DNA of 64,000 nt, from the NCBI GenBank assembly GCA_020402865.1, contig JADBYT010000001.1, forward strand, positions 186,001-250,000, read 5' to 3'. The DNA comes from Bacteroidota bacterium (GTDB lineage Bacteria; Bacteroidota; Bacteroidia; Palsa-965). Made by a program: the position numbers and the translations under genes. The notes beneath the pieces were generated by a model. The model did not search any database. It was not told the DNA's origin and worked only from the letters and a program-made list of their open reading frames with translations. Positions 4,275 through 31,149 of the stretch are shown in pieces; position 1 is the stretch's first letter; each line of letters opens with the position of its first letter.

Positions 4275-5324
4275 ATGAAAGCCTTCTTTACCTTCATTAT
4301 CGGTTATATGATTCTTTCCGGTAATCTTACAGCCCAATGCAACGCATCGTTTACCTGGTCGCAAACACAGAACAATGTAATTGCATTCACAAATACATCT
4401 ACACCCGCATTTGTAAACGGTATCTGGTCTTTTGGCGATCAGCAAACGGGTTATCAAAGCAATCCGGTGCATACTTATGCCAATCCGGGGACGTATTTTG
4501 TTTGTCTCACCATTTTCGATTCGCTCTCTAACTGTCAGGATTCATATTGCGACACGGTGCAGGTGACCGGCAATGCGCAGGTGTGTAATGCCAGTTTTAC
4601 ATGGGTGCAAACCGGGCCGGGAGTAATTGCATTTACCAATACCTCCACACCTTCCACTTCGGGGTATTCGTTTTCGTGGAGTTTTGGGAACAGCCAGACA
4701 AGTTCGGCCGTGAGTCCGTCGCATACGTATGCGTCGCCGGGTTCATATATTGTTTGCCTCACCATGTTTGACTCGGCTAACTGCCAGTCAACGTATTGCG
4801 ATACCATTCAGGTGAACGGCAACCCGCCGCCGCCCTGTCAGGCTGCATTCAGCTATTCAGTAAATGGTTCGGGGCAGGTGCAGTTTACCAATACATCGTT
4901 GCCGGGAACAGTGGGTTACTTCTTTTCATGGACATTCGGCAACAGTCAGTCGAGTTCGGCTGTAAATCCTTCTACTACCTATACCTCGTCGGGCAATTAT
5001 ACTGTTTGCCTCACCATGTTTGATTCTACTTGCCAGTCAACCTTTTGTGATACCATTCAGGTAATTATCAGCGGCACGAGTGAACTCGAACAACTTGGCT
5101 GGTCGTTGTATCCCAATCCGGCAAATGATATGCTCAATGTGCAAACTCCTGCCGCACTTAAAGATTTGAATTATCACATACTTGATGTAACGGGCCGCGA
5201 GGTACATGCGGGTGTATTTAATGAAAGCCGGATTTCAATTGTTGATTTATTGCCCGGTGTGTATTTGTTAACTGTAACGGATGATGAGGGTCATGTTTCT
5301 GTAAAACGTTTTATGAAGCAGTAG
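4275..5324 (+). CDS. Secreted PKD-repeat protein with type A T9SS sorting domain
   Basis: The 349-residue protein has a signal peptide ending about LTAQ (residue 21). Three tandem PKD-like repeats of about 80 residues follow, each opening with CNASFTW or CQAAFSY and carrying WSFG or WTFG, HTYASPG-like and VCLTMFDS motifs. The C-terminal domain (from WSLYPNPANDMLNV, ending LTVTDDEGHVSVKRFMKQ) is a type A sorting signal for the type IX system. It is a close paralogue in design of 5788-7158 downstream. Probably exported and cell-surface or released; ligand unknown. Confidence 0.85.
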   Translation: MKAFFTFIIGYMILSGNLTAQCNASFTWSQTQNNVIAFTNTSTPAFVNGIWSFGDQQTGYQSNPVHTYANPGTYFVCLTIFDSLSNCQDSYCDTVQVTGNAQVCNASFTWVQTGPGVIAFTNTSTPSTSGYSFSWSFGNSQTSSAVSPSHTYASPGSYIVCLTMFDSANCQSTYCDTIQVNGNPPPPCQAAFSYSVNGSGQVQFTNTSLPGTVGYFFSWTFGNSQSSSAVNPSTTYTSSGNYTVCLTMFDSTCQSTFCDTIQVIISGTSELEQLGWSLYPNPANDMLNVQTPAALKDLNYHILDVTGREVHAGVFNESRISIVDLLPGVYLLTVTDDEGHVSVKRFMKQ

Positions 5325-28464: not shown

Positions 28465-28694
28465 GGTGTAGTGTGTGTTCGGAACAACAGGAAAGCGAAG
28501 GTAAGGTTAGTGGGCGTTGTTTGCCAGTGTGCGGGGGAAATTTAGGGGGCTTTTTTGTGTGCTGCGGAAAGTTTTTTCCTTCAAAGCCGGAGAAACTTTC
28601 CGCATTGTTTGTGCAAGTCTGTGCCTTGCGGCAGGCTGCCTGGGAAATTTTTGGAGGGCTTGTTTTAAAAAAGTTGCAAACTTTTTTAATCAAT

Positions 28695-28735
28695 GCATCC
28701 GGTTTCTATCGTCTTCGACGATGGAAACCGGATGC
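28695..28735. repeat. Long near-perfect hairpin upstream of polA
   Basis: GCATCCGGTTTC-T-ATCGTC pairs with GACGAT-G-GAAACCGGATGC around a TTC loop: 19 positions with one T-G mismatch. A second small hairpin (GCCTGC/GCAGGC) follows at 28737-28754. It lies in the 370-base gap between the polA start and the gene at 28834-29409. It could be a transcript barrier or a mobile palindrome; no T run follows directly. Confidence 0.6.
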
Positions 28736-28768
28736 AGCCTGCCTTGCCGCAGGCTTGACTGAAAACCA

Positions 28769-29409: not shown

Positions 29410-29688
29410 TGCGTTGAATAATTGTTTTTATGTGTGAGCATCCCAAAGAAAGGTCATTGCCCGTGTGAAAGCAAGAGGATGTGAATATCTGAGCCGGGAT
29501 GTTAATAAGTTGTGCAAACCGGGTTTATAACCGGTGGTTTGAAAACCGGGTTTTGGTATGCAAATAATGCAAAAGCGTGAATAGGGCGGTCGTTCAGGGG
29601 TTTTTCACGATGTTTTTTGTAAAACTTTCGGGCGTGCGGACTAAAGCGGGTGGGTGAGGTTTGTATTTTCGCCGCAAACCTTTTTCCA

Positions 29689-30567
29689 GTGGCTTCACTT
29701 TCGTTCCGCAACCGTTTCCGCACCGCTTCTGCCACCATTGTAATAAGTATTACACTGGCTTTGATTATGCTGGGCCTGCTGGGCGCCATGCTGCTGAAAG
29801 CGCGCTCGGTTTCTGATTATGTGCGCGAAAACGTGTCGGTAATGGTGTTGCTTGACCGTGATGCGCGGGAGGCAGATATTATCAACCTTCAGAAAACGAT
29901 TGACCGGGCACCGTGGCGGAAAAGTACGCTGTACATCTCACGCGAGGAGGCCGCTGAAATGATGAAAAAGGAACTTGGCGAGGATTTTATTGCCACGTTG
30001 GGCGAAAATCCGCTGCAGCCCACCATTGAAATCAACCTCAAGGCTGCATACGCCAATACCGACAGTCTGACATTTATTGAACAGGAGCTGCGCAGCGACG
30101 CGCGAATAAAAGACGTGGTTTATCAGAAAGACTTAGTGGGCGAACTGAACAACCGCATGGGTTCATTAGGGCTGGTGGCTACGGTGGTGAGTGCGGCGCT
30201 GTTGTTTATAGCAGTGGTGATAATATTTATTACGGTGCGGCTTAGTATCTATTCACAGCGGTTCCTGATCCGCACCATGGATCTGGTGGGCGCCACGCAG
30301 CGTTTTATCCGCCGTCCGTTTGTGTGGCGCGGTGTGGTAAACGGCATAATGGGCGCGCTGCTGGCAATTGCGGCCACCACAGTTGTAATTCTGGCGCTTG
30401 ACCGTAATTTCCGCGATTTGCAGCTGGTGCAGCTGGGCGATGTGCAAACGCTGGCCCTGCTGGCGCTGCTGCAACTGCTGCTGGGTGTAGGCATTACGTG
30501 GATAAGCACCATAATGGCCGTGCGCAAATACCTGCGCCAAAGTGCGGATGCGCTTTACCGGAACTAA
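29689..30567 (+). CDS. ftsX: Cell division protein FtsX
   Basis: A 292-residue protein with a short cytosolic start, a first membrane segment (ATIVISITLALIMLGLLGAM), an extracytoplasmic domain of about 130 residues (VRENVSVMVLLDRDARE...) and three further membrane segments, the FtsX permease layout. With FtsE it forms an ABC-type complex that controls septal peptidoglycan hydrolases. I chose GTG at 29689; the earlier GTG at 29650 would place the promoter-like TATTTTCG (29665-29672) inside the gene. It begins the run ftsX, DUF3098, uppP, truB, typical for Bacteroidota. Confidence 0.9.
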   Translation: MASLSFRNRFRTASATIVISITLALIMLGLLGAMLLKARSVSDYVRENVSVMVLLDRDAREADIINLQKTIDRAPWRKSTLYISREEAAEMMKKELGEDFIATLGENPLQPTIEINLKAAYANTDSLTFIEQELRSDARIKDVVYQKDLVGELNNRMGSLGLVATVVSAALLFIAVVIIFITVRLSIYSQRFLIRTMDLVGATQRFIRRPFVWRGVVNGIMGALLAIAATTVVILALDRNFRDLQLVQLGDVQTLALLALLQLLLGVGITWISTIMAVRKYLRQSADALYRN

Positions 30568-30631
30568 CAGCCTCTAAGCTGGTTTTTTATTGCACCGGAC
30601 GATTTGGGTGTATAGCCCTGATTGCAGCGGA

Positions 30632-30720
30632 AATCAACTAAAACAAAAACTGTGGCTAACCTCTACGAGATCTTTAAGATCTCGTAGAGGTGAATACTAA
30701 TTTTTTTGTTTTAGTTGATT
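30632..30720. mobile_element. Nested perfect inverted repeat, MITE-like
   Basis: An outer 18-bp perfect repeat (AATCAACTAAAACAAAAA at 30632-30649 with its complement at 30703-30720) encloses an inner perfect palindrome with 16-bp arms (ACCTCTACGAGATCTT at 30659-30674 and its complement at 30676-30691). AGCGGAAA occurs at 30626-30633 and 30723-30730 on either side and may be a target duplication. No coding frame. It lies between ftsX and the DUF3098 gene and could be a small non-autonomous element or a strong RNA hairpin. Confidence 0.6.
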
Positions 30721-30846
30721 GGAGCGGAAAGCAGGAGCGGACGGTATTTTGAGGCTTCCCGCAGGTTCGCTCCAAACTATTCAGGGGCAAAAACTCCAAT
30801 AAGTCATAAAAACACGGGGCACCGTTCCCACTTTGGCCTCAATACT

Positions 30847-30854
30847 TATCTTTG
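30847..30854 (+). promoter_or_regulatory. -7 promoter element of the DUF3098 gene
   Basis: TATCTTTG is an exact match to the Bacteroidota -7 consensus TAnnTTTG and ends 4 bases before the ATG at 30859, so the transcript would have almost no leader. No clear -33 TTTG at standard distance. It supports the start at 30859. Confidence 0.5.
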
Positions 30855-30858
30855 CGTT

Positions 30859-31149
30859 ATGGCTAAGATTAACATAAAGAAAGACGCCCCCGCTGCTGCT
30901 GCTTCTTCAGAGAAGGCGAAACCTGCCACAATGGCTTTTGGCCGCACCAATTACCTGATTATACTTGGTGGTGTGGTGATGCTCATTATCGGCTATCTGC
31001 TTATGGTAGGCGGCGGGTCTGACGATCCGAATGTGTTTAACGAAGAAATGTTCAGCACACGCCGTATTACGGTATCGCCCATTGTGCTGCTGCTGGGTTT
31101 TGTGGTGGTGCTTTACGGCATTATGCACAAAGGCAAAACACAGGCCTAA
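30859..31149 (+). CDS. DUF3098 family membrane protein
   Basis: A 96-residue protein with an Ala/Lys-rich cytosolic start (MAKINIKKDAPAAAASSEKAKP), two membrane segments (NYLIILGGVVMLIIGYLLMVGGG and VSPIVLLLGFVVVLYGIM) and a loop DDPNVFNEEMFSTRRITVSP between them, the DUF3098 pattern. The frame stays open upstream to 30715, but that part crosses the promoter-like element and the inverted repeat, so the start at 30859 is better. It sits between ftsX and uppP, as in many Bacteroidota. Function unknown, probably linked to envelope growth. Confidence 0.85.
   Translation: MAKINIKKDAPAAAASSEKAKPATMAFGRTNYLIILGGVVMLIIGYLLMVGGGSDDPNVFNEEMFSTRRITVSPIVLLLGFVVVLYGIMHKGKTQA

Follow-up and report, generated by a model that had tools for sequence, protein, structure and literature searches.

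Known repeats and the Flavo-1 motif

ERIC, RUP and BOX elements are intergenic imperfect palindromes of 100 to 200 bp that vary between strains and have no known transposase, and the REP and ERIC repeats of enterobacteria are intergenic, strongly structured and neutral in orientation. In internal loops of the type 5'-GNA/3'-ANG, sheared G-A pairs can stack in both DNA and RNA. Canonical REPs carry GT[AG]G at the hairpin foot, and the structures of subclass 2.6 likewise lack it, according to the available portion of PMC6006769. Template switching is described as homogenizing the arms of inverted repeats in the accessible parts of PMC8604942 and PMC8794818. Flavo-1 (RF01705) is a Bacteroidetes motif from the 2010 comparative study of Weinberg et al. 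(PMC2864571, available part), is typed by Rfam as "Gene; sRNA" and stands among the sRNAs without function in a table of PMC9029176 (excerpt). In F. psychrophilum, it lies in sense and antisense of transcribed regions, with many matches outside them (PMC9723704, accessible text). A limited literature search found no published treatment of Flavo-1 as a mobile element or DNA repeat. The locus described here shows this known motif in a new light, as a true element that is scattered over the genome and has a second such element nested in it.

The element between ftsX and the DUF3098 gene

The window (the whole stretch of DNA that was analyzed, 64 kb) contains ftsX (Pfam PF18075/PF02687) and a DUF3098 gene (PF11297) that are 291 bp apart, with nested palindromes inside the spacer. 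The initial annotation had reported an 18-bp outer and a 16-bp inner perfect palindrome after ftsX, and both arms of each read as stated: the outer repeat is formed by AATCAACTAAAACAAAAA (30632-30649) and TTTTTGTTTTAGTTGATT (30703-30720), and the inner one by ACCTCTACGAGATCTT (30659-30674) and AAGATCTCGTAGAGGT (30676-30691) around a 1-nt center. The flanking motif AGCGGAAA was likewise found on both sides, in direct orientation, at 30626-30633 and 30723-30730. The feature is wider than 30632-30720, as it reaches about 30581-30773, and its parts are as follows.

30581..30773, + strand: whole extended Flavo-1-type element, 193 bp (aligned copy ends of this genome)
30610..30742, + strand: Rfam RF01705 Flavo-1 match (46.6 bits, gathering 42)
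30581..30612, + strand: left arm (alignment of the copies in this genome, sequence)
30613..30631, + strand: left core block TAGCCCTGATTGCAGCGGA, with GCA at 30624-30626 and GGA at 30629-30631 (Rfam match, alignment, sequence)
30721..30735, + strand: right core block GGAGCGGAAAGCAGG, with GGA at 30721-30723 and at 30726-30728 (Rfam match, alignment, sequence)
30626..30633, + strand: left AGCGGAAA, belonging to the core (sequence)
30723..30730, + strand: right AGCGGAAA, belonging to the core (sequence)
30632..30649, + strand: 5' arm of the outer palindrome, stem P4 (fold, sequence)
30703..30720, + strand: 3' arm of the outer palindrome, stem P4 (fold, sequence)
30639..30713, no strand: inner repeat unit, TAAAACAAAAA ... 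TTTTTGTTTTA around the apex palindrome, with relatives outside Flavo-1 (pattern sites)
30659..30691, no strand: inner (apex) palindrome, ACCTCTACGAGATCTT-T-AAGATCTCGTAGAGGT (exact and relaxed pattern counts)
30734..30773, + strand: right arm, with a weak hairpin GGAGCGGAC ... GTTCGCTCC and the GGTTCGCTCC end seen in the copies of this genome (sequence, alignment)
29650..30567, + strand: ftsX, upstream neighbor, start codon uncertain (open frame, Pfam)
30859..31149, + strand: DUF3098 gene, downstream neighbor (open frame, Pfam)

An inverted-repeat search of 30400-30900 returned only two pairs, which are both overlapping repeats in a longer, imperfect form, and for the window as a whole these two head a list of eight pairs. 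None of 200 shuffles was as stable as the RNA fold of 30581-30773 (z = -6.9) or the DNA fold of 30610-30742 (z = -9.7); these folds and the Flavo-1 match show that the nested palindromes are not due to chance. Elsewhere in the window, direct repeats with a spacing of about 246 to 252 bp (4377-5062) are perhaps the repeat domains of a large protein.

Copies and ends in the genome

The Flavo-1 model covers 30610-30742 (model positions 1 to 76) with 46.6 bits and an E value of 7e-7 when the window is searched; in the whole-genome search, under its own settings, the same site scored 39.5 bits, below the cutoff. Many further copies were found, as the initial annotation had suggested checking, so this is no single-copy feature. 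The model gave 39 matches in the genome at E<=10, of which 33 have E values under 0.01 and 11 exceed the cutoff, and missed six further copies, at C22:6.6, C17:63.0, C13:16.9, C8:47.6, C1 near 57 and C15:18.8 kb, which makes about forty-five scattered copies. The set of 39 copies that was read consists of 38 model matches plus one BLAST copy at a contig end (C1:259193), which together with a truncated copy at the end of C10 that has the flank in common with it looks like an assembly-end duplicate; the remaining model match, C1:111178, is a variant with both arms. Five partial BLAST matches were checked as possible solitary arms, and this candidate was ruled out, since all five hold the core, which is degenerate in some. 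Some copies cluster (C39, C15 and C6), which might suggest integron attC-like cassettes, and C39:1273-5037 holds three of them in one orientation, 1.6 to 2.1 kb apart, two being nearly identical.

The limits of the unit were placed with the 39 copies, of which 37 could be aligned on AGCC for the left end and 37 on GCTCC for the right end. Conservation begins about 33 nt before AGCC, with background to the left of GG, and on the right the information drops after GCTCC (GGTTCGCTCC), beyond which the flank is merely T-rich. As these ends are common to the copies of this genome, the unit here spans about 30581-30773 and is longer than the Rfam model. The outer arms are lineage specific, with a different left arm in the genus-mate G001 and no conserved one in G032, and the GCTCC or GCTTC end is present in 34/35, 14/16 and 13/17 placed copies of this genome, G001 and G032, respectively. 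The core carries symmetric internal loops (G-N-A/G-G-A) of the type 5'-GNA/3'-ANG, and the AGCGGAAA copies sit within it. A CTCCCGCAGAAAT-type sequence replaces the left G-N-A block in the copies at C17:63.0, C1:95.7, C1:111.2 and C11:45.1 kb, and it forms a hairpin in those at C17:63.0 and C1:111.2 kb.

The inner palindrome as a second repeat

The exact inner arms occur at four sites in the genome, and the relaxed pattern CGAGRTCT-N(1-6)-AGAYCTCG occurs at 13, with none in the reversed control. Eight of these sites are in Flavo-1 tips and five are elsewhere (C1:58053, C2:461170, C13:2333, C15:186109 and C15:186989), so the inner palindrome is a second repeat that is nested in the Flavo-1 tip. 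The independent sites are fewer than 13, as the C15 pair has similar flanks and C1:259223 lies in the likely assembly duplicate, the omission of which leaves 12 sites, 7 of them in Flavo-1. Read by eye, A/C-rich arms of the AAAACAAAAA kind accompany all of the inner sites except C2:461170. At C1:58053 the inner unit is centered in another palindrome, and in the Flavo-1 copy at C15:18.8 kb arms of the AAAACAAAAA kind accompany another apex palindrome. The relaxed pattern has no site in 58 related genomes, and the inner palindrome is apparently species restricted.

The junction in relatives

A search for DUF3098 in 39 genomes, including this one, detected the gene in 35, and of the 30 loci obtained 29 came from relatives; the addition of three named loci gave 32 relative loci, 31 of which carry both genes. 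In L083 ftsX is absent from the stretch, in L089 the two protein matches overlap, and L109 and L079 appear to come from a single genome. The gap between the two protein matches in relatives is 11 to 160 nt in 27/31, -25 in one and 239 to 255 in three. Of the 32 relative loci, 20 were scanned with Rfam, among them those of every one of the six other species in the genus, and none of these 20 has a Flavo-1 match at the junction; in the remaining 12 the core-anchor score at the junction is at most 7/10, versus 10 in this genome. Two Rfam-scanned loci (L082 and L094) reach anchor scores of 8 and 9 without an Rfam match. Far from being conserved at the same place in all relatives, the element was found in none of the 31 two-gene loci; among the relatives examined, the ftsX-DUF3098 copy was seen only in this genome and is lineage specific. 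The interruption of a compact junction holds, as the spacer is much shorter in most relatives, but the splitting of the transcript is not supported. In two junctions from other genera (L090 and L096), different inverted or repeated sequences fill the same spacer. Two genomes carry Flavo-1 upstream of ftsX instead (G004 and G020; loci L081, from the same genus, and L092).

Flavo-1 is present at E<=0.001 in 22/59 genomes, this one included, with 0 to 34 matches per genome among the 59 and also within the genus. Presence also varies at an orthologous site in another genus, namely purM-purN in the genus of G032, where 173 species were searched and the best 30 DNA matches were read: by eye, 10/30 loci have Flavo-1 and 20 are empty. 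On a purM+purN tree, the presence label needs six changes, at least four of which are forced by well-supported branches. The purM-purN spacers differ by whole modules, so that a gain looks the same as a loss or a replacement. In seven of these loci (L312, L314, L315, L319, L320, L321 and L333), a second palindrome, GCCTTGTCAAGGTTT...AAACCTTGACAAGGC, stands beside Flavo-1 with small changes, and many empty species have an AT-rich imperfect palindrome instead.

Comparison with known systems

The element shares with Rfam Flavo-1 its core structure and sequence, the Bacteroidota host and a score above the gathering cutoff, while the unit here is longer (with arms on both sides and a GCTCC end) and has a second repeat in its tip, and the evidence favors DNA over RNA. 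Like REP/REPIN sequences with TnpA_REP (RAYT), it is a dispersed intergenic hairpin with many copies and neutral orientation, with three Y1 adjacencies elsewhere, but Flavo-1 measures about 190 bp versus 20 to 40, and the Y1 genes of this genome have no adjacent Flavo-1. The suggestion of a REP-like hairpin is not supported at the hairpin foot of this element, where the canonical GT[AG]G (GTAG/GTGG) is absent; GTAG occurs within the apex stem. The resemblance to ERIC/RUP/BOX lies in the imperfect palindrome of 100 to 200 bp, the intergenic location, the lack of a known transposase and the variation between strains, whereas the sequences are unrelated, the inner hairpin of Flavo-1 is variable and the phylum is another. 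Perfect stems and compensatory changes are shared with template-switching hairpins, which are proposed for RNA in the available part of PMC8794818, while copying here seems to occur also between distant sites.

The initial annotation had also called the feature MITE-like, which is apt in that it is small, non-autonomous and dispersed but fails at the ends of the Flavo-1 unit, where there are no terminal inverted repeats (left, GGTTTTTTATTGCACC; right, on the opposite strand and toward the inside, GGAGCGAACCTGCGGG). Inverted ends are, however, present on the inner unit (TAAAACAAAAA/TTTTTGTTTTA). The two AGCGGAAA copies had been taken for a target duplication, with a one-copy empty site expected in relatives; this was ruled out, as both belong to the conserved hairpin core and other copies have the motif in their cores as well. 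No target duplication was noticed at the copy ends read by eye, and the genomes and loci examined yielded neither a mobilizing enzyme nor a target duplication nor an insertion boundary that is clean.

Placement and base pairing

Neighboring genes, called by a simple open-frame rule, were assigned for 27 clean cases after 12/39 copies with overlapping open frames or a missing neighbor had been dropped, and these cases divide into 9 convergent, 8 divergent and 10 tandem. For base pairing, 42/119 sequences could not be placed by the anchors and were dropped (4/39 from this genome, 4/20 from G001, 3/20 from G032, 18/20 from G020 and 13/20 from G052). Stems P1-P3 of the core covary, with several pair types, and in the 35 placed copies of this genome they have 235/245 Watson-Crick pairs, 4 G-T, 1 A-C and 5 others. 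The tRNAs of the same genome (n=34) served as a control for G-U only, as ARAGORN shows no A-C, and have 57/728 G-U pairs. G-U is rarer in the core (4/245, Fisher p 2e-4), also when four near-duplicate copies are left out (4/217, p 8e-4), when the filtered inner stems are added (4/507, p 8e-10), with the inner stem unfiltered (8/455, p 3e-6), for P1-P3 in three genomes (10/476, p 9e-6) and in all 77 placed copies (15/539, p 1e-4), where all of these p values ignore the relatedness of the copies and hence are too small. In P1-P3 of the three genomes there are 10 G-T versus 2 A-C among 476 pairs, which leans to wobble pairs; for all 77 placed copies the figures are 15 and 13 of 539.

The first six inner pairs in this genome, unfiltered, comprise 182/210 Watson-Crick, 4 G-T, 10 A-C and 14 others, and the filtered inner-stem count of 261/262 ends at the first poorly paired stretch. 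A-C gathers at the fourth inner pair (8/10 here, with C-A 11/11 in G001 and 12/16 in G032), which is a conserved mismatch.

Inner hairpins shared between unlike arms

Among the copies of this genome, six pairs reach a core identity of 0.91 or more, and their left arms are 0.46 to 0.62 identical and their right arms 0.64 to 0.79, the means over all pairs being 0.60 and 0.66. One more such pair, L050/L052, was excluded because it seems to be a duplicate (identity of 0.73 in the left arm, 1.00 in the right arm and 0.90 outside on the right). Inner identity is unrelated to left-arm identity in three genomes (rho -0.05, -0.12 and 0.06) and weakly related to right-arm identity here (rho 0.25, with 0.06 and -0.09 in the other two), and its correlation with core-block identity is 0.37 here, 0.17 in G001 (not significant) and 0.48 in G032. 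As inner identity tracks the core blocks and not the left arm, core and inner hairpin often travel together, with arms around them that are unlike. Individual pairs show closer likeness of the inner hairpin than of the core: L048 and C8:113223, 5 kb apart and in opposite orientation (inner 0.97, core 0.76), and L270/L273 of G001 (inner 1.00, core 0.82). Such sharing of inner hairpins would follow from gene conversion, from template switching or if the hairpin itself moved.

Y1 transposase-like genes

Y1_Tnp (PF01797) occurs in 44/59 genomes, including this one, which has three such genes. Of 36 Y1 loci scanned with Rfam (33 from other genomes and the 3 here), 3 have Flavo-1 about 120 to 250 bp from the Y1 match; at these loci (L169, L170 and L194, from G002, G055 and G025), the Y1 gene is also accompanied on its sides by short hairpins of its own. 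In G002 and G025 the only Flavo-1 of the genome adjoins its only Y1_Tnp match at E<=0.001. All three proteins carry the motifs DH[VTI]H, WQ, YI.NQ..HH or similar and by these resemble subclass 1.2, as far as the available portion of PMC6006769 describes it, and L177 and L191 have similar Y1 motifs and no Flavo-1. No Flavo-1 was found at E<=1 in the scanned stretches around the three Y1 genes of this genome, one of which (on C8) shows motifs like those of subclass 2.6 and has a different repeat at its flank. Three genomes with Flavo-1, namely G020 (27 matches), G026 (8) and G005 (5, incomplete genome), gave no Y1_Tnp match at E<=0.001. The window itself contains, at 28664-28738, a repeat related to the flank of the Y1 transposase-like gene at C8:50.6 kb (76-nt alignment, 82% identity), which is possibly a REP-like repeat of that subclass 2.6-like gene.

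Alternative explanations

The strong fold (z -6.9), the covarying stems, the slight excess of G-T over A-C in three genomes, the Rfam typing as sRNA and the coincidence of several F. psychrophilum matches with 5' transcribed regions (PMC9723704, accessible text) would all suit a functional RNA as filed by Rfam, either a small RNA or a cis-regulatory folded transcript, but a motif with no favored orientation to genes, fewer G-U pairs than tRNAs, indifferent sense or antisense placement in the accessible text of the same study and no presence at the ftsX-DUF3098 junction of relatives makes this unlikely, and we lean toward Flavo-1 here being a DNA repeat rather than an RNA. A terminator or transcript-splitting hairpin after ftsX is very unlikely. 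Although the hairpins are strong and the right flanks of the copies in this genome are T-rich after GCTCC, the sequence after GCTCC at this site is AAACTAT, which provides no U run for an intrinsic terminator; the element has no terminator-like site, the single match outside it is on the - strand and near the shuffle expectation, and 8/27 clean copies lie between divergent genes. Equally improbable is a site for a host DNA protein (nucleoid, gyrase or structure-specific nuclease) that is kept by selection and is not selfish: the intergenic, orientation-neutral and strongly structured copies would agree with it, the range of 0 to 34 matches among the 59 genomes and within the genus would not, and we know of no protein for which Flavo-1 is such a binding site.

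It is possible, but doubtful, that Flavo-1 is the substrate of a Y1 (HUH) transposase-like enzyme in the REP/RAYT fashion, with spread of the single-stranded hairpin. The odds of this link were raised by the third adjacency (G025) and are helped by the 3/36 scanned Y1 loci with an adjacent Flavo-1, by the sole Flavo-1 beside the sole Y1_Tnp match in G002 and G025 and by the subclass 1.2-like motifs (PMC6006769, available portion) of all three proteins; they are lowered by the choice of the G002 and G055 loci for their adjacency, by the varying side and strand relative to the Y1 gene, by the other hairpins beside each Y1 gene, by G020, G026 and the incomplete G005, which carry Flavo-1 without Y1_Tnp at E<=0.001, and by the Y1 genes of this genome, which lack Flavo-1 in the scanned stretches and one of which is flanked by another repeat. 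Rather unlikely, in our view, is that Flavo-1 is no RNA family but a DNA hairpin socket, into whose conserved shell exchangeable hairpin cassettes are copied at the tip; the shell would have paired G-N-A/G-G-A loops, the cassettes would include independent palindromic repeats, and almost identical inner hairpins would pass from site to site, with separate histories kept by the outer arms and, in some pairs, by the core stems. The partial coupling of the inner and core blocks weakens this idea; if it were true, bacterial repeats would have a further, new way of evolving, in which one hairpin is exchanged into another through a dedicated enzyme or through template switching.

Proposed model and implications

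The many copies with shared ends, the absence from the junction in relatives, the nested repeat and the neutral placement point to a DNA repeat, as do the covarying stems with few G-U pairs and the near-identical inner hairpins between unlike arms. We therefore read the ftsX-DUF3098 element, with a probability of about 0.6, as a lineage-specific copy of a DNA hairpin repeat that is dispersed and non-autonomous (the Flavo-1 shell), with a nested second palindromic repeat. Its working form would be a single-stranded or cruciform DNA hairpin that is exposed at replication. The conserved shell (two G-N-A/G-G-A loops, the two covarying pairs between them and P1 closing) may be recognized by a trans-acting protein, for which a Y1 (HUH) enzyme is one candidate. 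Template switching or short-tract gene conversion could keep the stems perfect and copy hairpins between sites. Probably neither ftsX nor DUF3098 depends on the element in any specific way, and the spacer merely tolerates it.

Since 2010, Flavo-1 has stood as an orphan motif. Should it be a DNA repeat, many Bacteroidota sequences annotated as sRNAs would be mislabeled, and the family would offer a large natural set of hairpins in which the upkeep and copying of stems can be studied without selection on RNA. The counting of G-U versus A-C pairs is a simple test that is usable on other orphan motifs.
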